Source of the DNA: Sulfitobacter sabulilitoris | GTDB lineage: Bacteria > Pseudomonadota > Alphaproteobacteria > Rhodobacterales > Rhodobacteraceae | Length of the DNA: 64,000 nt | Assembly (NCBI RefSeq): GCF_005887615.1 | Contig: NZ_VANS01000001.1 | Coordinates: 359,415-423,414 of the forward strand | Reading direction: 5' to 3' | In this document: positions 45,001 to 57,665 of the stretch, one piece after another | How positions within the stretch are numbered: the first letter of the stretch is position 1 | Layout of the letters: each line of letters opens with the position of its first letter | Position numbers and translations under genes: made by a program | Notes under the pieces: model-generated | Database searches by the model: none | Seen by the model: only the letters and a program-made list of their open reading frames with translations | What the model was told of the DNA's origin: nothing

Positions 45001-45779
45001 GAATCTGCTCCTGTTCGCACCATTTTGCCGTTCACGAAATGGATGCCGCATTCTTCCTTGGATTGATCGCGCCAGCGGCCCGCGCGGGCGTCTTCGCCGG
45101 GGGCGACCGGAGACGTGCAGGGCGCGCAGCCGATCGAGGGATAGCCCTGCGCCACCAGCGGGTGCCGCGGCAGGCGGTTTTCGGTCATATAGGCCTGTAC
45201 GTCCTGCGGTGCCCAGCGGGCCAGCGGATTGACCTTGATCCGGCCGGTGCCGTCCTCGACTTCGAAGAATTCCAGCGCGGCGCGGGTGCCGGACTGAAAC
45301 CGCTTGCGGCCGGTGATCCAGCCATCGAAATCCGCCAGCGCCGCGTCGAGCGGTGCGGATTTTCGCAGCGCGCAGCAGGCATCCGGGTCGCGCTGGTGCA
45401 GGGTGCCCGCAGGGTCCTGATCGGCGATGTCGGCCGCGCGCAGGATATGCACCCGCCGCAGCCCCAGCCGTTCGGCCAATTCCTGCTGATAGACCAGCGT
45501 TTCGGCAAACAGCATCTGCGTATCGATGAACAGCACCGGCAAATCGCGGTTCACCATCGCCGCCAGATGCAGCAGCGCCACGCTTTCCGCGCCGAAGCTG
45601 GACACCAGCGCCAGGTTGGGCACCGCGCGAAGCGCCAGCCGCAGGACATCGGTCGCGCCGTGGTGGCGCATCTGGTCGTTCAGCGCCGCGACACGGTCGC
45701 GCAGCGCTGTGGTGGCGGCGGAGCCGCCGGCGGAGGAGGAGTTTTCAGCCAGAAGACGGCCGGGTTCGTCAAGCGGCAT
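44997..45779 (-). CDS. cysH: Phosphoadenylyl/adenylyl-sulfate reductase, [4Fe-4S] APS type
   Basis: This 260-residue enzyme reduces activated sulfate to sulfite. The substrate-binding loop is LVSSFGAESVALLHL. The cysteine pairs Cys135-Cys136 (DACCALRK) and Cys218/Cys221 (GCAPCTSP) bind a [4Fe-4S] cluster; their presence marks the APS-using rather than the PAPS-using form. The catalytic cysteine is Cys244 in EECGIHF. It overlaps the end of cysI by 11 bases and the DUF934 start by four. Confidence 0.94.
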   Translation of the reverse strand: MPLDEPGRLLAENSSSAGGSAATTALRDRVAALNDQMRHHGATDVLRLALRAVPNLALVSSFGAESVALLHLAAMVNRDLPVLFIDTQMLFAETLVYQQELAERLGLRRVHILRAADIADQDPAGTLHQRDPDACCALRKSAPLDAALADFDGWITGRKRFQSGTRAALEFFEVEDGTGRIKVNPLARWAPQDVQAYMTENRLPRHPLVAQGYPSIGCAPCTSPVAPGEDARAGRWRDQSKEECGIHFVNGKMVRTGADS

Positions 45780-47436
45780 CGGCTTTGGCCTCGGCTGGAT
45801 AGAGGGCGGATTTGAACGGGGAGAGGCCCAGCCTGCGATAGGTCTGCAGGAAGGTTTCCGATGGTTCCGTGCGCAGGTCGAGATAGGCCAGAACCAGCCG
45901 TTCGATGGCGGGAATGATCTCGTCCGCGGAAAAGCCCGGGCCTGCGCGTTCGCCGATGGCCGCATCCTGCGTTCCGTCGCCGCCCAGCGTGATCTGGTAG
46001 TTTTCCACGCCCGCCCGGTCGAGCCCGAGGATGCCGATATGGCCCACATGGTGGTGGCCACAGGCGTTGATGCAGCCCGAGATCTTGATCTTGAGCGGAC
46101 CGACGTCGTGTTCCAGCTTGAGCTCGTCGAAGCGGGTCGCGATTTCCTGCGCGATTGGAATCGACCGGGCCGTGGCCAGCGCGCAGTAGTCCATGCCGGG
46201 GCAGGCGATGATGTCGCTGATCAGACCGATGTTGGCGGTGGCCAGTCCCGCGTCTTTCAGCGCGGCGTGCAGGGCGGGCAGGTCGCCGCGGTGCACATGC
46301 GGCAGGATCACGTTCTGTTCGTGGCTGATGCGCAGTTCATCGTGACCGTAGTCGCGGGCCAGGCTGGCCATCAGCCGCATTTGATCGGACGAGGCGTCGC
46401 CGGGTGTCGCCCCATGCGCCTTGAGCGAAATGGACACGATCGCATACCCCGGCGCGCGATGATCGCTGAGGTTGGTGTCCGCCCAGCTGCGAAAGATGGG
46501 ATCGTTGCTGTAGGCGGCTTCAAACGGCGCGAGCGAGGCCGACTTGAATGCAGGGGCCGCGAAATCGGCTTCGATCGCCGCCAGCAATTGCTGATCGACA
46601 CCCGAGAACTGCGGGCGGATCAGGGCGAAGCGCTCTTCGACCCGCGCGCGGATGTCGTCGAGCCCGTTTTCATGCACGGTGATCTTGATGCGCGCCTTGT
46701 ACTTGTTGTCGCGGCGGCCCAGCAGGTTATAGACCGACACGATGGATTCAAGATAGGGCAGCAGGTCTTCGCGCGGCAGGAAGTCGCGCAACACCTTGCC
46801 GATCATCGGCGTACGGCCCAGGCCACCGCCGACGATGACCTCGAAGCCGGCTACGCCGTCACGCTCCACCATTCGCAGGCCGATGTCGTGCGCCTTGGTC
46901 ACAGCGCGGTCGTTCGGGCTGCCGGTGACGGCGACCTTGAACTTGCGTGGCAGGAACTGGAATTCGGGGTGGTCTGTGGACCACTGGCGGATAAGCTCGG
47001 CCACCGGGCGCGGGTCGGCGATCTCGTCCGCGGCGGCACCGGCGAAATGGTCGGCCGTTACGTTGCGGATGGTGTTGCCGGAGGTCTGGATCGCATGCAT
47101 TCCCACGTCCGCAAGCGCGTCGAGCATGTCGGGCACGTCGCGCAGCAGCGGCCAGTTGTACTGGATGTTCTGGCGGGTGGTGAAATGGCCGTAGCCCTTG
47201 TCCCACCGGTCGGCGATATCGGCCAGCGCGGTCATCTGGCGGCTGTCGAGCGTGCCATAGGGGATGGCGACGCGCAGCATGTAGGCATGCAGTTGCAGGT
47301 ACAGACCGTTCATCAGGCGCAGCGGCTTGAATTCGTCCTCGGTCAGCGAGCCGTCGATGCGGCGTTCGACCTGGGCGCGGAACTGGGCGTTGCGTTCGGT
47401 CACAAATTCGGTGTCAAACTCGGTATAGCGGTACAT
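45769..47436 (-). CDS. cysI: Sulfite reductase, sirohaem [4Fe-4S] subunit
   Basis: This 555-residue protein reduces sulfite to sulfide. It has the duplicated nitrite/sulfite reductase fold: GYGHFTTRQNIQYNWPLL and a first ferredoxin-like half, then the cluster-binding cysteines in ACPGMDYCALA and SGCINACGHHH (near residues 408, 414, 447 and 451). Its size and the lack of a CysJ flavoprotein suggest ferredoxin-type electron supply; fpr is in the same cluster. It could be taken for an assimilatory nitrite reductase, but the cysH and cysG partners support sulfite. Confidence 0.94.
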   Translation of the reverse strand: MYRYTEFDTEFVTERNAQFRAQVERRIDGSLTEDEFKPLRLMNGLYLQLHAYMLRVAIPYGTLDSRQMTALADIADRWDKGYGHFTTRQNIQYNWPLLRDVPDMLDALADVGMHAIQTSGNTIRNVTADHFAGAAADEIADPRPVAELIRQWSTDHPEFQFLPRKFKVAVTGSPNDRAVTKAHDIGLRMVERDGVAGFEVIVGGGLGRTPMIGKVLRDFLPREDLLPYLESIVSVYNLLGRRDNKYKARIKITVHENGLDDIRARVEERFALIRPQFSGVDQQLLAAIEADFAAPAFKSASLAPFEAAYSNDPIFRSWADTNLSDHRAPGYAIVSISLKAHGATPGDASSDQMRLMASLARDYGHDELRISHEQNVILPHVHRGDLPALHAALKDAGLATANIGLISDIIACPGMDYCALATARSIPIAQEIATRFDELKLEHDVGPLKIKISGCINACGHHHVGHIGILGLDRAGVENYQITLGGDGTQDAAIGERAGPGFSADEIIPAIERLVLAYLDLRTEPSETFLQTYRRLGLSPFKSALYPAEAKADAA

Positions 47437-47508
47437 GTCGGCTCCTTGATGCCCCTGGGCCGCGGGGGCCGGGGCGGATCGGGGATTGGGTGTGTCAGCG
47501 GCTGCGGA

Positions 47509-47817
47509 TCAAAGCGGCGCGATGTCGTCTTCCTGCTTGCCGTGGCGATAGTTGCTGGGCCCGCGGGCGCGAAATGCCTCGCGGAAATGCGCAGGCGCGG
47601 GGCCACCGGCCTGCGGCACCACATCGGCGAGATAGGCGCCCACGACGCGGTTGATCTGCTGCGCGGCCTCGATCAGGCGCAGATCGGCATCAGCCTCGTC
47701 GGTCAGCACCTCGGCGTGATCCAGCTCACGGGTCCAGCCGCTCGCGGTCTGATAAATCACATCGCCCAGCAACAGATCGTTGGCGGTCACGACTTTGGGA
47801 GTGAATTCTCTGGCCAT
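47509..47817 (-). CDS. DUF2849 protein
   Basis: This 102-residue protein matches DUF2849: KVVTANDLLLGDVIYQTASG, HAEVLTDEADADLRL, and VVGAYLADVVPQ near the end. The family is found between cysG and cysI in alphaproteobacteria, and its role is unknown. Its ATG overlaps the TAA stop of cysG by one base (TAATG), so the two are coupled. A longer frame into cysG is a shadow. Confidence 0.92.
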   Translation of the reverse strand: MAREFTPKVVTANDLLLGDVIYQTASGWTRELDHAEVLTDEADADLRLIEAAQQINRVVGAYLADVVPQAGGPAPAHFREAFRARGPSNYRHGKQEDDIAPL

Positions 47818-49211
47818 TATGCAAGCTCCTCGATGGGCAGGTCGGTCAATGCGGGGACGGCGGCGCGCGGGGCAAGGCCGTAGAATGTGAGTGCGGGGCC
47901 GGCCATCGCGGCGGCCTCGAGCGCGGCGGGCAGGGCGTCGAGCGTGGTGTCGAGAATGCGCTGTTCGGGGCGCGAGGCGTTTTCGATCACCGTGACGGGC
48001 GTGTGCCGGTCGGCACCGTGCATGATCAGCCGCCCCTGAATGAACCGGGCGGATTTCTTGCCCATGTAGATCGCCGCGACCTCGCCGGGGCGGGCCAACG
48101 CGCGCCAGTCGTGATCGGCGAAGCCCTTGGTGTCGTGACCCGTGAGAAAGCGCACCGAGGAATTGCGATCGCGTTTGGTCAGGCTTTGACCGATCGCGGC
48201 CACCGCGGCGGAGGCGGAGGTGATGCCGGGCACGATGTCCCACGAGATCTGATGCGCGTCCACCGCGTCGATCTCTTCGTCCAGGCGGCCAAAGACCGTG
48301 GCGTCGCCCGATTTCAGCCGCACCACCTGCGCACCGGTGCGGGCGTGTTCGACGATCAGCGCGTTGATGTCGGCCTGGGTCATCGAGGGGCCGAAGCCTT
48401 CCTTGCCCGCGTCGATCATCACCGCCTCGCGGCGGGCGAGTTCCAGAATGGGCTGGCTGATCAGGCGGTCGTAGATCACGACGTCGGCCTCATCCAGCAC
48501 ACGGCGCGCCTTGAGCGTCAGAAGCTCCGGGTCGCCTGGGCCCGCGCCGACGAAATGCACATGGCCGGGCCGCGCACCGCGGGTCAGGTGATCGTCGAGC
48601 AGCGCATCCAGTGCGGGACGCACGGCATCGGCACCCTGCGCCACGGCGCGGGGGCCGGCGGCGAAATAGAAGTCGCGCCAGAAATCGCGGCGCGGGCGGC
48701 CGAAGGGCAGCGCATCGGCCATCTTGCGGAATCCCTTGCCGATGCGGGCCAGCGTGCCCAGCGTGGCGGGCAGGCGCTGCTCCAGGTCGGCCTTGATCGC
48801 GCGGGCCAGCACGGGGGCCGCCCCTTCGGTGCCGATGGCGATGGTCACGGGGTCGCGATCGACGATGGCGGGGGTGATGAACTGGCTGTCGTCGAGGTTG
48901 TCCACGATGTTGACCAGCGCCCCGTCGGCGCGTGCAATGGCGGCGGTACGGGCGTCTTCGGCGGCGTCCTCGTCGGCGGCATAAAAAAGTGCGGCGCAGA
49001 GCGCATCGCCCGGGGCCATCGCGCGCGGGATCAGCGCAAGCTTGCCCTGCGCGGCCCATGTCCGGATGTCCTGGGCCGCATCGGGCGCAAAGACGGTCAG
49101 ATGGGCAGTCGTCTTCATCAGCAGGCGCAGCTTGGCACTGGCAGCGTCGCCCCCGCCCGACAGCACGACGCGGCGCCCGGCGAGTGCGACGAAGATTGGG
49201 AAATGATCCAT
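47817..49211 (-). CDS. cysG: Sirohaem synthase (multifunctional CysG)
   Basis: This 464-residue protein makes sirohaem for CysI. The N-terminal half is the dehydrogenase/ferrochelatase module (FVALAGRRVVLSGGGDAASA, IVDNLDDSQFITPAIVDRDP). The C-terminal half is uroporphyrinogen III methyltransferase (VHFVGAGPGDPELLTLKARR, VVRLKSGDATVFGRLDEEI, DIVPGITSASAA). The ATG at 49211 begins the first module. It heads the sulfur cluster and is divergent from the Lrp regulator gene; the 147-base gap holds inverted repeats. Confidence 0.96.
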   Translation of the reverse strand: MDHFPIFVALAGRRVVLSGGGDAASAKLRLLMKTTAHLTVFAPDAAQDIRTWAAQGKLALIPRAMAPGDALCAALFYAADEDAAEDARTAAIARADGALVNIVDNLDDSQFITPAIVDRDPVTIAIGTEGAAPVLARAIKADLEQRLPATLGTLARIGKGFRKMADALPFGRPRRDFWRDFYFAAGPRAVAQGADAVRPALDALLDDHLTRGARPGHVHFVGAGPGDPELLTLKARRVLDEADVVIYDRLISQPILELARREAVMIDAGKEGFGPSMTQADINALIVEHARTGAQVVRLKSGDATVFGRLDEEIDAVDAHQISWDIVPGITSASAAVAAIGQSLTKRDRNSSVRFLTGHDTKGFADHDWRALARPGEVAAIYMGKKSARFIQGRLIMHGADRHTPVTVIENASRPEQRILDTTLDALPAALEAAAMAGPALTFYGLAPRAAVPALTDLPIEELA

Positions 49212-49254
49212 TGTTGAAACCGCCTGCTGTTCGTTTGACTTGACCCCCAATATA

Positions 49255-49331
49255 GGAAATATTCCCGATATGTCGCCAGATGCCGGATTGAATAAGGACG
49301 CATGTTCCGTTTATACGTCAAACCGGAACAT
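49255..49331. promoter_or_regulatory. Candidate Lrp-type operator between cysG and its divergent regulator
   Basis: Two inverted repeats lie here: GGAA-ATA-TTCC at 49255-49265, in an AT-rich stretch, and ATGTTCCG with CGGAACAT separated by 14 bases at 49302-49331. Both share a TTCC/GGAA core. Lrp proteins bind such spaced half-sites, so control of cysG and self-control by the adjacent Lrp protein is plausible. Confidence 0.5.
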
Positions 49332-49358
49332 AAGACTGCACAGGGCAAGGAAATCGGA

Positions 49359-49820
49359 ATGAGCGTTCGAATTGACGAGACAGACAGGAAGATCCTGGCG
49401 GAGCTGCAGCGCGACGCCAGCCAGTCGCTGGACGACATCGCGACCCGCGTGGGCAGTTCCAAGACCCCGGTATGGAACCGGATTCGCAAGCTGCGCGATG
49501 CCGGGGTGATCGGACAGCATACCGTGATGCTGGATGCCGACATGCTGGGCTTCGAGGCATGCTTTTTCGTGCTGATCCGCACGTCCGAACATGAGGCCGC
49601 GTGGCAGCAGGCGTTCCTGAAGGCCCTGCAAGACCGCCCCGAGGTGCAGGAGGCGCACCGCCTTGCGGGCGATATCGACTATATACTCAAGGTGCGGGTC
49701 AAGAACGCGCGCGCCTATGACGCATTCTACCAGGCGCTGATTTCAGAGGTGAAGGTGTTCAACGTCACGGCGCTTTTGTCGATGGAGCAGTTGAAATCCA
49801 CCACGATGCTGCCGCTGTGA
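49359..49820 (+). CDS. Lrp/AsnC family transcriptional regulator
   Basis: This 153-residue protein has an N-terminal HTH (ETDRKILAELQRDASQSLDD, SSKTPVWNRIRKLRDAGVI) and a RAM ligand-binding domain (VQEAHRLAGDIDYILKVRVK). It is divergent from cysG and probably regulates the sulfur cluster, perhaps in response to cysteine or methionine; that is inferred from position. The ATG at 49359 begins the HTH domain with GGAA before it. An upstream ATG at 49302 lies within the putative operator. Confidence 0.93.
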   Translation: MSVRIDETDRKILAELQRDASQSLDDIATRVGSSKTPVWNRIRKLRDAGVIGQHTVMLDADMLGFEACFFVLIRTSEHEAAWQQAFLKALQDRPEVQEAHRLAGDIDYILKVRVKNARAYDAFYQALISEVKVFNVTALLSMEQLKSTTMLPL

Positions 49821-51146: not shown

Positions 51147-52922
51147 ATGAAACGGAATGTCATCAAGAGCGGTCTTGTGCAGCGCAGCGCGATCGTGCTG
51201 GCGTTTCTGGCGACGGTGGCGACAATCAGTGCGGGCGTCTGGCGGCATGGCTACCTGCAGGCGCTGGGGCAGGTGGCGCAGCAGGGGCGCGCGGCGCTCG
51301 ACCTCAACAGCGACCGACTGGTGGGCCAGGTGCAGCGCGCGCGCGAACTGGCCGTGCTGATGGCCGATCACCCGATGATGCCCGCGCTGGCGGCGGGGCG
51401 GCAAGGCGACCGGGCGGCGCAGTTGTTTCTGGAGGTCGCGGACAAGACCGCCGCGCTGGACGTCATGTTCGTCAACCGCGCGGGCCGGGTGCAGGCCGCC
51501 GCCCGGGCCGCCGCTGGGGCCGACCTGGGCGATCAGGATTATATCCGCCGCGCGATGCAGGGGGCGCTGGGGTGGGGCCACGGCGTGGACCGCCCGCTTG
51601 CGCCGCGCGCCTTTTACGCGGCGGCGCCCGCCTTTGACGCGGCGGGCCGGGTGCAGGGCGCGGTGGTCGTGGCCGTCGACATGACCAGCATCGAAGACAG
51701 TTGGCGCGGCAGCAATCCGGCGGTGTTCTTCACCGATGAGCGGGGCGCGGTCTTTGTGTCGAACCGGTCCGAACTGGTGTTCTGGGAGCGGCCGGAAAAC
51801 GGGCCGGGGCTGGTCCCGCCCGAGGGGGCCGCGCCCGCGTTCGACAGCTACCGCACCGGCCCGCACGAGGTCTGGCAACTGGGCTGGGGGCCGTACCTGC
51901 CGCAGAACGCGCTGCACCTGACGCGGGCCTTGCCGGTGATCGGGCTGACCGGCGAGGTGCTGATCGATGTGGCGCCGGCGCGGGCGCTGGCCACCAGCCA
52001 GGCCGCCGCGGTCGCCGCGCTGTGCCTGGCGTTCGGGGCGCTGCTGTTTCTCGCGACGGAACGGCGGCGCACCCTGGCCGCGGCGAACGCCCAGCTTGAG
52101 GCGCGCGTGGCCGAACGCACCGCCGCGCTGTCCGATACCAACGCACAATTGCGCCGCGAGGCCACCGAACGCGAAGAGGCGCAGACCGCCCTCGCGCGCG
52201 CGCAGGCCGATCTGGTGCAGGCCGGCAAGCTGAGCGCCCTGGGGCAGATGAGTGCGGGCATCAGCCACGAACTCAACCAACCGTTGATGGCGATCCGGTC
52301 GTTTGCGGAAAACGCGGTGCAATACCTTGACCGCGACCAGCCCGACCGCGCCGCCGAGAACCTGGGCCGCATTTCCGACATGGCGCGCCGGATGGGGCGG
52401 ATCATCAAGAACCTGCGCGCCTTTGCGCGCAACGACCATGAACCGCAGACCCGCGTCGATGCCGCGGCCGTGCTGCGCAGTGCGCTGGACCTGACGGCCA
52501 GCCGGATCGACCGGGCCGACGTCACCGTGGCCTACGATCCGCCACCCGGCCCCGTCTGGGTGCGCGGGGGCGACGTGCGGCTGGGGCAGGTGTTCGTCAA
52601 CCTGATCGCCAACGCCGCCGACGCGATGGAGGGGCGCGCGACGCGGACCCTGCGGATCACGATCGAGGATGGCGCGCGCCCGGCCATTCATTTCGCCGAC
52701 ACCGGCCCCGGCATCGACATGCCCGACAAGATGTTCGAGCCGTTCTATTCCACCAAGTCGGTGGGCAGCGGCGATGGCATGGGGCTTGGACTGTCGATCA
52801 GCTATGGCATCGTGCAAAGCTTCGGCGGCGAGATCAAGGGCAGCAATACCGGCGAGGGCGCGTTGTTCACCGTCCGGCTGGATCCGATGCCCGCCAAGCC
52901 CGGAGAGGTGCGCGCCGCATGA
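51147..52922 (+). CDS. dctB: DctB-like C4-dicarboxylate sensor histidine kinase
   Basis: This 591-residue membrane kinase has a first helix at about residues 12-30, a periplasmic PAS-like sensor region, a second helix near 277-298, a coiled coil (RVAERTAALSDTNAQLRREA) and the kinase core. The phosphorylated His is near residue 374 in GISHELNQPLMAIRSF. The ATPase motifs are FVNLIANAADAM (N box), FADTGPGIDM (G1) and GMGLGLSISYGIV (G2). The layout and GISHELNQPLxAI are those of DctB. It overlaps the regulator gene in ATGA, and dctPQM lies just downstream. Confidence 0.92.
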   Translation: MKRNVIKSGLVQRSAIVLAFLATVATISAGVWRHGYLQALGQVAQQGRAALDLNSDRLVGQVQRARELAVLMADHPMMPALAAGRQGDRAAQLFLEVADKTAALDVMFVNRAGRVQAAARAAAGADLGDQDYIRRAMQGALGWGHGVDRPLAPRAFYAAAPAFDAAGRVQGAVVVAVDMTSIEDSWRGSNPAVFFTDERGAVFVSNRSELVFWERPENGPGLVPPEGAAPAFDSYRTGPHEVWQLGWGPYLPQNALHLTRALPVIGLTGEVLIDVAPARALATSQAAAVAALCLAFGALLFLATERRRTLAAANAQLEARVAERTAALSDTNAQLRREATEREEAQTALARAQADLVQAGKLSALGQMSAGISHELNQPLMAIRSFAENAVQYLDRDQPDRAAENLGRISDMARRMGRIIKNLRAFARNDHEPQTRVDAAAVLRSALDLTASRIDRADVTVAYDPPPGPVWVRGGDVRLGQVFVNLIANAADAMEGRATRTLRITIEDGARPAIHFADTGPGIDMPDKMFEPFYSTKSVGSGDGMGLGLSISYGIVQSFGGEIKGSNTGEGALFTVRLDPMPAKPGEVRAA

Positions 52923-54151
52923 GCCGCCGTGTGTTGCTGGTCGATGACGATGCCGCCGTCCGCGAGGCGCTGGTCCAGACGCTCGAGCTGGCGGATCTCG
53001 ATCCGATCGCGGTGGGGTCCTTCGTGGCGGCCAAGGACCACATCACCCGCGGCTTCGACGGTGTGATCCTGTCCGATATCCGGATGCCGGGGCGCGACGG
53101 CTTTCACCTGCTGGGCTATGCGCGCGACGCCGATCCGGACTTGCCGGTGATCTTGCTGACGGGCGAAGGCGACATCCCGATGGCGGTTCAGGCCATGGGG
53201 CAGGGGGCGTTCGATTTCCTGGAAAAACCCTGTGCGCCGGGCGCCTTGCTGGCGGTTCTGGAACGGGCGCTGAAGACCCGCGCGCTGGTGCTCGACAACC
53301 GCCGCCTGCGCGCGCTGGTCCAAAGCGGCGATCCGGCGGCGCGGTTGTTGCACGGCACCTCCGATCTGGCCGAGGGCCTGCGGGCGCGGGTGCGCCGCGC
53401 GGCGCGCACCCAGGCCGAAGTGCTGGTGACGGGCGCGCCGGGGACCGGGATTTCCAAGGTGGCCGAGGTGATCCACCTCAGCTCCCAAAGCTCCGGCGGC
53501 CCCTTTGTGAAACGCGCGGGCGCGGGGCTGGCGCCCGCCGCGCTGCAGGACGCGCTGACCGCCGCGCGCATGGGCAGCCTCTTCATCGACGAGATCACGC
53601 AGTTGCCGGCACAAAGCCAGCTTACCCTGACCGAGGCGCTGGACGGCGCGCGCGAGACACGGCTGATCGCCGGATCGACGCGCGATCTGTCCGCGCTGGT
53701 CGAGACTGGCGAGATGAGTGCGGAGTTGTATTACCGGCTGGAAGTGATGCAGGTGCGGATTCCGTCGCTGTCCGAGCGGCCCGAGGATATTCCGGTGCTG
53801 TTCCAGCATTATGTCGCACAGGCCAGCGAACAGGCGGGACTGCGCCCGCCCGAAATTGCGCCGCAGGTCGTGGCGGGGTTGCTGGCGCGCGACTGGCCCG
53901 GCAACGCCCGCGCCCTGATGTCCGAGGCGATGCGCTTTGCGCTGGGTCTGGGAGAGGAGCGCGAGAGCGACGCGTCGCTCGGGTTGGCCGACCAGATGGC
54001 GCAGGTCGAGCAATCGCTGCTGGAAGCGGCCCTGCGCCGCGCCGGGGGTCAGGCGACGGCGGCGGCCGAGGCGCTGCGATTGCCGCGCAAGACCTTCTAC
54101 GACAAGCTGGCGCGCTACGGGATTCGGGCAGAGGATTACCGGCGCTCGTGA
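52919..54151 (+). CDS. dctD: DctD-like response regulator with degenerate AAA+ domain
   Basis: This 410-residue regulator has a receiver domain (Asp9-11, phosphorylated Asp53 in ILSDIRMPGRDG, Lys in EKPCAPG), an AAA+ domain and a FIS-type HTH (GGQATAAAEALRLPRKTFYD). The AAA+ part departs from sigma-54 activators: the Walker A site near residues 170-180 reads TGAPGTGISK, with Ile in place of the Lys, and the segment that should hold the ESELFG and GAFTGA motifs is missing. Walker B (GSLFIDEI) and the arginine region (LYYRLEVMQVRIP) remain. It cannot be expected to drive sigma-54 polymerase. Rhodobacter capsulatus NtrC, also without GAFTGA, works with sigma-70. Confidence 0.9.
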   Translation: MSRRVLLVDDDAAVREALVQTLELADLDPIAVGSFVAAKDHITRGFDGVILSDIRMPGRDGFHLLGYARDADPDLPVILLTGEGDIPMAVQAMGQGAFDFLEKPCAPGALLAVLERALKTRALVLDNRRLRALVQSGDPAARLLHGTSDLAEGLRARVRRAARTQAEVLVTGAPGTGISKVAEVIHLSSQSSGGPFVKRAGAGLAPAALQDALTAARMGSLFIDEITQLPAQSQLTLTEALDGARETRLIAGSTRDLSALVETGEMSAELYYRLEVMQVRIPSLSERPEDIPVLFQHYVAQASEQAGLRPPEIAPQVVAGLLARDWPGNARALMSEAMRFALGLGEERESDASLGLADQMAQVEQSLLEAALRRAGGQATAAAEALRLPRKTFYDKLARYGIRAEDYRRS

Positions 54152-54153
54152 TT

Positions 54154-54203
54154 TGTGCGGAAATCCGCACAGGCTTGCCCGCAAGTGTGCGGATTATCGC
54201 ACA
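54154..54203 (+). promoter_or_regulatory. Tandem operator pair upstream of dctP
   Basis: Two near-identical 18-bp dyads occur: TGTGCGGAAATCCGCACA at 54154-54171 and TGTGCGGATTATCGCACA at 54186-54203. Their starts are 32 bases apart, three helical turns, so both face the same side of DNA. Tandem DctD sites of this kind are known from rhizobial dctA. They begin three bases after the dctD stop and 208 bases before dctP, in the place of an enhancer. No sigma-54 (GG-N10-GC) promoter was seen downstream. Confidence 0.8.
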
Positions 54204-54302
54204 CGGAGCCGCGGGATTGCCGGCCTCCGCAAGCGGAGTGGGGCGCAATGGATTGAAAAGACGTCGATTAATCCGATCCGCCGGGTATCCGTTCACAATG
54301 TC

Positions 54303-54331
54303 TTGTCGGCGGGCTGACGCTGGTGTCATAT
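54303..54331 (+). promoter_or_regulatory. Possible sigma-70 promoter of dctP
   Basis: TTGTCG and TCATAT lie 17 bases apart, 80 bases before the dctP start. The match is partial, especially at -10. It is listed because no sigma-54 element can be seen between the operator pair and the gene. Confidence 0.3.
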
Positions 54332-54410
54332 GTCCAGCAGCGCCTTTGCACCGCAGGGGCCGACCGCAAACTTGCATCAGCAAGACCAAAAGTTTCTGGG
54401 AGGAAACCAC

Positions 54411-55412
54411 ATGAAATTTCTGACAGCCGCCGCAATGGCGCTGACGCTGACCGTCAGCGCCACAGCAGTATCCGCCGCATGCGACGATGGTGAAATCGTC
54501 ATCAAGTTCAGCCACGTGACCAACACCGACCGTCACCCCAAGGGCATCGCCGCCTCGCTGCTTCAGGGGCGCGTGAACACCGAGATGGACGGCAAGGCCT
54601 GCATGGAAGTGTTCCCCAACTCGACACTCTACAACGATGATCAGGTGCTCGAGGCGCTGCTGCAGGGCGACGTGCAGATGGCCGCGCCGTCGCTGTCCAA
54701 GTTCGAGCAGTTCACCAAGGTGTTCCGCATCTTCGACCTGCCGTTCATGTTCAACGACATCAACGCCGTGGACGCGTTCCAGAACTCCGAAACCGGGCAG
54801 GCGATGAAGGAATCGATGGTGCGCCGCGGGTTGCTGGGCCTGCAGTTCTGGCACAACGGCGTGACCCAGATCTCGGCCAACAAGCCGCTGATCTCTCCTG
54901 AGGATGCCGCGGGCCTGAAGTTCCGGGTGCAGCCCTCCGAAGTGCTGAAGGCGAACATGGAAGCGCTTGGCGCGAGCCCGCAGCCGATGGCCTTTTCCGA
55001 AGTCTACGGCGCCCTGCAGACGGGCGTTGTCGACGGTCAGGAAAACACCTGGTCGAACATCTACGGCCAGAAGTTCTTTGAAGTGCAGGACGGCATCACC
55101 GAGACCAACCACGGTGTGATCGACTACCTCGTCGTGACCAACGTCGACTGGTGGGAAGGGCTTGACGCCGACGTGCGCGACCAGCTCGCCACCATTCTGC
55201 AGGAAGTGACCGAACAGCGGAACGCGGAATCCTTCCAGGTCAACGAGGAAGCCAAGGAAGCGATCATCGCCGCCGGTGGCACGGTGCGCAAGCTGACGCC
55301 CGAGCAGCGTCAGGCCTGGGTCGACGCGATGAAACCGGTCTGGAACCAGTTCATCGACGACGTGGGCCAGGAAAACATCGACGCCGCACAGGCGATCAAC
55401 GCGTCAATGTAA
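54411..55412 (+). CDS. dctP: TRAP transporter solute-binding protein, DctP family
   Basis: This 333-residue periplasmic protein has a signal peptide (about residues 1-23, ending in VSAAC) and the DctP fold. The conserved GLKFRVQPSEVLKANMEALG holds the Arg that binds the substrate carboxylate, followed by EVYGALQTGVVDGQENTWSN. C4-dicarboxylates such as succinate, malate or fumarate are the likely ligands, given the DctBD genes upstream. GGGAGGAAA precedes the ATG. A terminator-like hairpin separates it from dctQ. Confidence 0.95.
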   Translation: MKFLTAAAMALTLTVSATAVSAACDDGEIVIKFSHVTNTDRHPKGIAASLLQGRVNTEMDGKACMEVFPNSTLYNDDQVLEALLQGDVQMAAPSLSKFEQFTKVFRIFDLPFMFNDINAVDAFQNSETGQAMKESMVRRGLLGLQFWHNGVTQISANKPLISPEDAAGLKFRVQPSEVLKANMEALGASPQPMAFSEVYGALQTGVVDGQENTWSNIYGQKFFEVQDGITETNHGVIDYLVVTNVDWWEGLDADVRDQLATILQEVTEQRNAESFQVNEEAKEAIIAAGGTVRKLTPEQRQAWVDAMKPVWNQFIDDVGQENIDAAQAINASM

Positions 55413-55601: not shown

Positions 55602-56282
55602 ATGTCGGTGCATCAAAAAGACCAGTCCGCGTTCGGTCGTTTCGTGACCGAGCTTGAGGAAACCTTTATCGCGCTGCTCCTCGGCGCCATGACGATCATC
55701 ACTTTCATCAACGTCGTGCTGCGCTACGGCTTCAACACCGGGTTGATCTGGGGGCTGGAAGCGGTGACGTTTCTGTTCGCGTGGCTCGTGCTGTTCGGCG
55801 TCAGCTACGCGGTCAAGATCACGGCCAACCTTGGCGTGGATGCGGTGATCAACCTGTTCGGGCCCCGCGTCCGACGCGTTCTGGCCCTGGTGGCAGCGGC
55901 GGTTTGCCTGATCTACGCCTTCATGTTGCTCAAGGGCGCCTGGGACTATTGGGCGCCCTTCGCGGGCTTCGATGTGACCAGCGGGCGCTGGTTCCCCACC
56001 GGGTTCACGCCCACGCGCGACCAGGCCTGGTACGAGGTCGTCGATATTCCGTTTCCCGAATTTCTGCGGTGGATCGAACCCATCGTCAACGAGGGGGAGC
56101 ATTACGAGAAACTGCCGCGCTTCATTCCCTATGCGATCCTGCCGCTGGGCATGGCGTTGCTGCTGCTGCGGTTCATTCAGGCCACGCTGCGCCTGATCCG
56201 GGGCGAGGCCGACAGCCTGATCGTGAGCCACGAGGCCGAAGACGCCGTCGAGGACGTCAAACACATGAATGCCGAGGGCTAA
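55602..56282 (+). CDS. dctQ: TRAP transporter small permease, DctQ family
   Basis: This 226-residue inner-membrane protein has four membrane segments (the first about ALLLGAMTIITFINVVLRYG; the second includes WGLEAVTFLFAWLVLFGVSY). FNTGLIWGLEA is typical of DctQ. A larger than usual loop between helices 3 and 4 is rich in Trp, Phe and Pro. With DctM it forms the sodium-driven importer that takes ligand from DctP. The ATG at 55602 was chosen over 55536; GGGGGA lies before it. dctM starts four bases after the stop. Confidence 0.93.
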   Translation: MSVHQKDQSAFGRFVTELEETFIALLLGAMTIITFINVVLRYGFNTGLIWGLEAVTFLFAWLVLFGVSYAVKITANLGVDAVINLFGPRVRRVLALVAAAVCLIYAFMLLKGAWDYWAPFAGFDVTSGRWFPTGFTPTRDQAWYEVVDIPFPEFLRWIEPIVNEGEHYEKLPRFIPYAILPLGMALLLLRFIQATLRLIRGEADSLIVSHEAEDAVEDVKHMNAEG

Positions 56283-56285
56283 GAC

Positions 56286-57665
56286 ATGGAAGTCGCAATT
56301 CTTTTCGCCATGGTGGTAGGCCTGATGCTGATCGGTGTTCCGATCGCCGTATCGCTTGGCATGTCCTCCATCATGTTCCTTCTGGTGCTCAGCGATACCT
56401 CGCTGGCCTCCATCGCGCAGACGCTGTTCCAGGCGATGGCGGGGCATTACACGCTACTGGCGATCCCGTTCTTCATCCTTGCCTCCAGCTTCATGTCGAC
56501 GGGCGGTGTGGCCAAACGGATCATCCGCTTTTCCATCGCCCTCGTCGGGCACCTGCCGGGCGGTCTGGCGATTGCGGGCGTGTTCGCCTGCATGATGTTC
56601 GCGGCGCTGTCGGGGTCCAGCCCGGCCACGGTCGTCGCCATCGGTTCCATCGTGATCGCGGGGATGCGGTCGGTGGGCTATTCCAAGGAATTCGCCGCCG
56701 GTGTCATTGCCAACGCAGGCACGCTCGGCATCCTCATTCCGCCCTCGATCGTGATGGTGGTCTATGCCAGCGCCACGGACGTGTCGGTGGGCCGGATGTT
56801 CCTGGCCGGCGTCATTCCCGGCTTGTTGGCGGGCACCATGCTGATGGTCACGATCTACGCCATGGCCAAGATATACGACCTGCCCAAGGGCGAATGGCTT
56901 GGCTGGGGCGAGGTCTGGGCCAGCGGGCGCGAGGCGGGTTGGGGCCTGTTCCTGATCGTCATCATCCTGGGCGGCATCTATGGCGGGATCTTTACCCCGA
57001 CCGAAGCCGCCGCCGTCGCCGCCGTCTATGCGTTCTTCATCGCGAGCTTCGTCTATCGCGACATGGGGCCGCTGCATGTGAAGGGCGACGAGACGCATAA
57101 CCTGCCGCTGATCAAAAAGCCCATCGCGCTGATTTCGGTGTTTTTCCACCGCGACACCCGCGACACCCTGTTCGAGGCGGGCAAGCTGACCGTCACGCTG
57201 ATGTTCATCATCGCCAACGCGCTGATCCTCAAGCACGTCCTGACCGACGAACAGATCCCGCAACAGATCGCGGCGATGATGCTGGACGCGGGGTTCGGGC
57301 CCATCGTGTTCCTGGTGATCGTCAACGTGATCCTGCTGATCGGCGGGCAGTTCATGGAACCGTCGGGCCTGTTGGTGATCGTGGCGCCGCTGGTCTTTCC
57401 CATCGCGATCGAACTGGGGATCGACCCCATTCACCTGGGCATCATCATGGTCGTCAACATGGAAATCGGGATGATCACGCCGCCGGTCGGTCTGAACCTC
57501 TTCGTGACCTCGGGGGTTGCCAACATGCCGATGATGTCGGTCGTGCGCGCGGCGCTGCCGTTCCTGGCCGTCTTGTTCGTGTTCCTGATCCTCGTGACAT
57601 ACGTCCCGATCATCAGTACATGGCTGCCCACCTTGATGATGGGGCCGGAAATCATCGTCAGGTGA
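56286..57665 (+). CDS. dctM: TRAP transporter large permease, DctM family
   Basis: This 459-residue inner-membrane protein has about 12 hydrophobic helices and the DctM family motifs: PIAVSLGMSSIMFLLV, FASSFM-like FFILASSFMSTGGVAKRI, AALSGSSPATVVAIGS, GTLGILIPPSIVMVVYA, and near the end NMEIGMITPPVGLNLFV. It forms the transport channel of the DctPQM system. The central cytoplasmic stretch is slightly long. A terminator shared with tpiA follows. Confidence 0.96.
   Translation: MEVAILFAMVVGLMLIGVPIAVSLGMSSIMFLLVLSDTSLASIAQTLFQAMAGHYTLLAIPFFILASSFMSTGGVAKRIIRFSIALVGHLPGGLAIAGVFACMMFAALSGSSPATVVAIGSIVIAGMRSVGYSKEFAAGVIANAGTLGILIPPSIVMVVYASATDVSVGRMFLAGVIPGLLAGTMLMVTIYAMAKIYDLPKGEWLGWGEVWASGREAGWGLFLIVIILGGIYGGIFTPTEAAAVAAVYAFFIASFVYRDMGPLHVKGDETHNLPLIKKPIALISVFFHRDTRDTLFEAGKLTVTLMFIIANALILKHVLTDEQIPQQIAAMMLDAGFGPIVFLVIVNVILLIGGQFMEPSGLLVIVAPLVFPIAIELGIDPIHLGIIMVVNMEIGMITPPVGLNLFVTSGVANMPMMSVVRAALPFLAVLFVFLILVTYVPIISTWLPTLMMGPEIIVR

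Follow-up and report, generated by a model that had tools for sequence, protein, structure and literature searches.

Tandem DctD-type operators upstream of dctPQM in Sulfitobacter sabulilitoris: a putative sigma-54 enhancer probably now used with sigma-70 polymerase

Two near-identical 18-bp operators lie upstream of a TRAP transporter operon (dctPQM) in the Sulfitobacter sabulilitoris genome, within the 64,000-nucleotide stretch of DNA analyzed here (the window). We consider it probable that they form an enhancer-type upstream activating sequence of dctPQM, derived from a sigma-54 system but now working with the sigma-70 polymerase, with the help of an IHF bend and by contact instead of ATP-driven remodeling. 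The evidence comes from the locus itself, from its counterparts in related bacteria and from relatives that display an older, sigma-54-dependent arrangement.

RESULTS AND DISCUSSION

Organization of the locus and its operators

The genes and sites follow the order dctB-dctD-operators-dctP-dctQ-dctM. A DctB-like sensor histidine kinase (51147..52922, plus strand), recognized by weak dCache, HisKA and HATPase_c matches, shares the last four bases of its ORF with the start of a DctD-like response regulator (52919..54151, plus strand). The latter lacks both the GAFTGA motif and the Walker-A lysine, while its receiver D53 and Fis-type HTH are intact. Downstream are dctP, coding for the TRAP solute-binding protein (54412..55412, plus strand), dctQ, coding for the small permease (55603..56282, plus strand), and dctM, coding for the large permease (56286..57665, plus strand). 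A longer ORF call for dctP, starting at 54330, is unnecessary, as the ATG at 54412 suffices. The neighbor of the operators had been named as dctP in the original prediction, and it is indeed part of a DctP-family TRAP operon, dctPQM. The regulator gene thus has as neighbors genes for a DctB-like kinase and for a transporter of the C4-dicarboxylate type, and the transporter family suggests a C4-dicarboxylate substrate. Elsewhere in the window (45769-49820), ORF translations point to a compact sulfur-assimilation block composed of a sulfite-reductase-like ORF, a CysG-like siroheme synthase and a divergent Lrp/AsnC-type regulator.

Operator 1 (TGTGCGGAAATCCGCACA, 54154..54171) and operator 2 (TGTGCGGATTATCGCACA, 54186..54203), dyads for which no strand is assigned, start 32 bp apart, which corresponds to 3.05 turns at 10.5 bp per turn. 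Both have perfect 6-bp arms, and 14 of the 18 letters are common to the two 18-mers. The initial description of two near-identical dyads, placed three turns apart on one DNA face, is therefore exact in position, spacing and symmetry. A genome-wide search, proposed as a check of that description, returned operators 1 and 2 as the only perfect TGTGCG-N6-CGCACA sites: they are the sole zero-mismatch matches to TGTGCGNNNNNNCGCACA in the whole 3.94-Mb genome. We had considered a wider DctD regulon in S. sabulilitoris, but with no further perfect site in the genome the operators look local. Within the window alone, the operator count is unremarkable by itself (2 matches with at most one mismatch against 0.49 expected; 8 of 100 shuffles reached 2).

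Conservation of the operator pair in related bacteria

We compared the window with 80 fetched loci that code for a homologous regulator (81 loci in total), searching each whole locus for the best pair of dyads with the spacing left free between 24 and 45 bp and the arms scored out of 24. Every locus yielded a best pair scoring 20-24, and the spacing was 32 bp in 62 loci, 33 bp in 18 and 31 bp in one. The same search with a backwards-read control pattern gave best pairs of only 16-19. Chance dyads are excluded because the pair is conserved, at fixed spacing, in all 81 loci.

The distance from the operators to the dctP ATG is steady near 200 bp, whereas that from dctD to the operators varies from ~5 to 150 bp. 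Two loci (L069 and L076), in which more than 1 kb separates dctD from the transporter, looked like exceptions at first sight; the pair turned up further downstream, before dctP and not beside dctD. Because of this near-constant distance to dctP, and because the pair stays with dctP in L069 and L076, the operators are considered to be part of the dctP control region. The DctD-like neighbors in L172 (S. medicae), L174 (Aminobacter) and L175 (Chelatococcus) do not belong to dctA or dctP loci and have no such pair.

DNA recognition and likeness to rhizobial DctD sites

A resemblance to the DctD sites of rhizobial dctA had been noted from the outset, and for operator 1 it amounts to identity. All 18 positions agree with the DctD site of dctA on S. 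meliloti pSymB (L180:3563), and this sequence is the published R. meliloti DctD-binding site (PMC11077940). The second, weaker dctA site of S. meliloti is unrecognizable with the operator pattern, so the spacing comparison leaves S. meliloti out. The recognition helix of S. meliloti DctD also recurs unchanged in the window regulator (PRKTFYDKL). The HTH residues R, K, T and Y are invariant in all 81 regulators, and the window protein gives an HTH_8 match. These similarities suggest that the DctD-like regulator is the binder of operators 1 and 2.

Degeneration of the regulator

The original prediction called the adjacent DctD degenerate, a view that extends to the entire set: both GAFTGA and the Walker-A lysine are lost in 81 of 81 regulators. 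Compared with S. meliloti DctD, the window regulator carries a 19-residue deletion that includes the GAFTGA loop and a further 12-residue deletion before sensor I, and its Walker A reads GAPGTGIS against GETGSGKE. Not one of the 81 proteins has a GAFTGA-like motif, and the Walker-A lysine is replaced by I, V, T or F throughout. Nearly all of them have N, H or S at the position aligned with the R of FREDLYYR (the arginine finger). By contrast, receiver residues D53, T81 and K103 are kept in every regulator, and the window protein gives a Response_reg match.

The receiver, the HTH together with the operators, the kinase and transporter context, and the grouping in the regulator tree all mark the protein as DctD-type by descent. 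What sets it apart from sigma-54 enhancer-binding proteins is the loss of GAFTGA, of Walker A and of the arginine finger, in a setting that lacks a -24/-12 promoter and rpoN. By sequence, the ATP-binding feature needed by R. capsulatus NtrC is missing as well, the Walker-A lysine being absent, and the DctD-like activator probably no longer binds ATP.

Sigma-54 machinery in the genome and its relatives

No sigma-54 element was found between the operators and dctP, even with three mismatches allowed, and rpoN was undetected in the S. sabulilitoris genome by a search that does find it in Caulobacter. The earlier statement that no sigma-54 promoter lies nearby is thus upheld and extends to a genome without detectable rpoN. 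All five clear NtrC-family proteins of this genome lack GAFTGA; the enhancer-binding proteins of this rpoN-less genome have changed over genome-wide. The other four NtrC-family AAA+ regulators are located at C17:56589-57092 (L184), C1:591920-592408 (L185), C1:798361-798819 (L186) and C1:588201-588617 (L187). Walker A (GxxGxGK) is kept in four of the five, only DctD having lost the lysine.

We also surveyed 49 genomes with a close DctD homologue, chosen by at least 53% identity to the window DctD and not by the state of the loop in each protein. In this set rpoN is absent from 39 genomes, full-length in 8 and fragmentary in 2. Since eight genomes keep full-length rpoN, its loss is not always coupled with that of GAFTGA. 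The full-length copies occur in G077, G112, G114, G010, G039, G097, G003 and G082, each of which also codes for a protein closely homologous to the degenerate DctD. Several RpoN matches in these genomes score low, and they are perhaps dedicated or regained copies.

Predicted sigma-70 promoter and IHF-like site

Between operator 2 and dctP there is a predicted sigma-70-like promoter. Its -35 element, TTGTCG (54303..54308, plus strand), contains a positionally conserved TTG, 108 bp from the operator 2 center in the window, and is separated by a 17-bp spacer from the -10 element TCATAT (54326..54331, plus strand); the dctP transcript would start near 54338. Compared with the consensus the window promoter is poor (4/6 at -35 and 3/6 at -10), and a generic promoter scan does not call it. 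Such weakness fits an activator-dependent promoter, although it does not prove one. An IHF-like site, CAATGGATTGAAA (54246..54258, minus strand), is found 51 bp past the operator 2 center; read on the minus strand, TTTCAATCCATTG matches 8/9 of WATCARNNNNTTR.

Both elements recur at nearly fixed positions. Among 78 loci, TTG peaks 107-109 bp from operator 2 and mostly falls within 105-110 bp. The pattern TTG-N19-21-TNNNNT is present at 104-110 bp in 44 of the 78, whereas other offsets average 2.3, with a maximum of 8. Likewise, matches to at least 8/9 of the IHF consensus on the minus strand number 33 at offsets 49-53, against ~1 elsewhere. A second group of genera, which had no part in their discovery, has the two elements in most of its loci, for example in L130 (IHF 9/9 at 52, TTG at 109) and L123 (9/9 at 51, TTG at 107). 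The basal GAFTGA-less locus L102 has both promoter-like and IHF-like elements too. Some Tateyamaria loci are without TTG at the conserved -35 position. Both ihfA and ihfB are present in the S. sabulilitoris genome.

Proposed mechanism and rival explanations

According to the mechanism that we propose, DctB would sense C4-dicarboxylates and the DctD-like regulator would become phosphorylated on D53. Two dimers would then bind one face of the DNA at the tandem 18-bp operators, whose centers lie at about -175 and -143 relative to the predicted start. IHF, bending the DNA near -86, would bring the regulator onto the sigma-70 polymerase at TTG-N17-TNNNNT, and the regulator would recruit or stabilize this polymerase by contact and not by ATP-driven remodeling. 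Binding by the regulator, bending, phosphorylation, the direction of control and nucleotide independence are all inferred here from the features described above. A published phenotype bears on the direction of control. Loss of SPO2630 in Ruegeria pomeroyi abolishes 97% of growth on fumarate, the corresponding figures for dctM and dctP being 99% and 97% (PMC10130141). SPO2630 carries the annotation C4-dicarboxylate transport sensor (PMC4809877). Gene order and the close Ruegeria loci (L080, L084, L095 and L096) suggest that the SPO2630 locus is equivalent to that of the window. The mutant growth fits activation; the mutated gene is the annotated sensor, not the regulator.

The same two sites could instead let the regulator mainly repress, or form a silencing loop, with dctP being constitutive. 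Losing ATPase and sigma-54 contact leaves a bEBP well able to bind DNA, and at sigma-70 promoters the GAFTGA-less Caulobacter NtrC works both as an activator and as a repressor (PMC10274813). Yet the operators do not overlap the conserved promoter, being placed ~140-175 bp before the predicted start, and the growth defect of the R. pomeroyi sensor mutant on fumarate is what an activator system would lead one to expect; we regard repression as unlikely. Somewhat more weight, though not much, may be given to activation without IHF, either through direct contact alone or with a different bending protein, with the middle element belonging elsewhere. This element is known by its consensus only, the window copy reaches 8/9 and several loci score lower; moreover, A/T-rich DNA is favored by other nucleoid proteins too. 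Against this stand the strong enrichment at a single offset, its repetition in independent genera and the presence of both IHF genes.

The identity of the sigma factor can be questioned in a similar way. RpoH-type promoters have a CTTG-like -35 and a C-rich -10, and CTTGAG and CTTGTG are frequent versions of the conserved -35. However, the sequences at the -10 positions (TTTACT, TTGATA, TTCACT) lack the C-rich RpoH character, and reading by another sigma-70-family factor, such as an RpoH-type one, in place of the housekeeping factor seems improbable. Least credible of all, and in our opinion extremely improbable, is a role of the dyads in RNA, as a terminator or attenuator after dctBD. The stretch does fold better than shuffles (z -2.4), but any dyad pair would do so. 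No terminator is called and there is no T run; the pair keeps a nearly fixed distance to the promoter but a variable one to dctD, accompanies dctP when dctD is more distant and is located upstream of the predicted dctP start. We therefore dismissed a terminator or RNA element and favor an upstream activating sequence.

Relation to known systems

The rhizobial DctB-DctD/dctA system has in common with the window the operator 1 sequence (18/18 in S. meliloti), the recognition helix, the tandem sites and, if the substrate suggested for the window is correct, the substrate class. The window differs from it by having no GAFTGA, Walker-A lysine or rpoN, by a sigma-70-like promoter in place of -24/-12, by a TRAP operon in place of dctA and by an IHF-like site in between.

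In its proposed mode of action, the activator resembles Rhodobacter capsulatus NtrC, whose tandem sites lie over 100 bp upstream. This protein, too, has GAFTGA deleted, and the window locus likewise joins a GAFTGA-less regulator to far-upstream tandem sites. R. capsulatus NtrC is a phosphorylation-dependent activator of the housekeeping polymerase, a likeness that we propose for the window regulator. It is also a GAFTGA-less, sigma-70-acting bEBP that needs ATP binding (PMC10274813, citing Bowman and Kranz 1998). ATP binding is thus needed there, whereas here the Walker-A lysine is lost in all 81 regulators; regulon and operator differ as well.

Another counterpart is R. capsulatus HupR at hupSL, where a far-upstream site (~-157) and an intervening IHF site (~-87) precede a sigma-70 promoter. 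HupR is an NtrC-family activator, and this layout and its distances are nearly those predicted for the window. HupR activates when unphosphorylated (PMC5133592). The window shows no sign of inhibition by phosphorylation, and its operator and partner kinase are different. Caulobacter NtrC and Vibrio VspR are further GAFTGA-less bEBPs at sigma-70 promoters, as proposed for the window; the former needs Walker A and B and the latter works without ATP (PMC10274813). Neither is associated with operators of the DctD type. That bEBPs lacking GAFTGA can operate on sigma-70 promoters is consequently already known, and a DctD version would be new; in the open-access literature we found no published description of a DctD of this kind.

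Probable origin from a sigma-54 enhancer

Our view of the older sigma-54 state is based on four canonical loci. In L105 (G004), a member of the same family, the regulator has GAFTGA and GETGTGKE, the genome codes for rpoN, and a 32-bp tandem pair is followed by a sigma-54 promoter, TGGCATGGATTCTGCA, before dctP. L143, L149 and L153, which belong to other families within the class, have rpoN and pairs 32-34 bp apart with arm scores of 19-21/24; their sigma-54 elements are 93-104 bp from operator 2. Across the four loci, the -24 element lies 60-104 bp from operator 2. In a regulator tree built by a quick method, all GAFTGA-less DctDs of the lineage fall into one clade (99% SH-aLRT), which nests beside the canonical G004 and G017 (95% and 99%). 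The degree of degeneration varies among GAFTGA-less proteins: Walker A is still present in L102 (G057) and in the G105 group, the latter having lost Walker B, and the Walker-A lysine is gone from the main clade. The G057 and G105-group genomes are without full-length rpoN.

Because the same pair occurs in a relative that has both GAFTGA and rpoN, and because the GAFTGA-less DctDs form one clade, the enhancer was most likely kept while its polymerase partner changed. This part of the original prediction is supported both by the rpoN-bearing relatives, with a tandem pair before a sigma-54 promoter, and by the tree. A fuller version of events, which we find about evenly balanced between right and wrong, is that the whole sigma-54 enhancer moved to the housekeeping polymerase. 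The operators, their 32-bp spacing and the rough loop length would have been kept, a sigma-70 promoter would have replaced -24/-12 at a similar distance, and the AAA+ domain would now serve as a nucleotide-free scaffold. Graded natural intermediates would survive, from GAFTGA with rpoN (G004) through GAFTGA loss with Walker A kept (G057) and Walker B loss (G105 group) to Walker A loss (main clade).

These findings bear on how an ATP-burning sigma-54 activator can switch to the ordinary polymerase. R. capsulatus NtrC, HupR and Caulobacter NtrC are single cases of such a change-over, and we know of no before-and-after pair at one promoter. The same operator pair in both states among related bacteria, together with intermediate proteins, makes the change traceable and testable stepwise. 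The results also lead to a prediction for the control of C4-dicarboxylate uptake in common marine bacteria of the Roseobacter group.

Two further loci deserve mention. The canonical DctD of G017 (L114 3890-3960) has the helix PRNTLYDK instead of PRKTFYDK, and its locus contains TGTCCGA/TCGGACT-type repeats instead of TGTGCGG, along with a sigma-54 element, TGGCGCAACTCTTGCT. The TGTGCGG pair is absent upstream in this locus, and the paired differences in helix and repeats are a possible natural change of the helix-to-operator code. On a plasmid of Qingshengfaniella alkalisoli (L112 / L178), whose genome is without rpoN, a distant DctD-like protein has GAFPGA for GAFTGA, and tandem dyads 32 bp apart precede a TAXI-type TRAP operon; this is possibly an independent instance of the same change.
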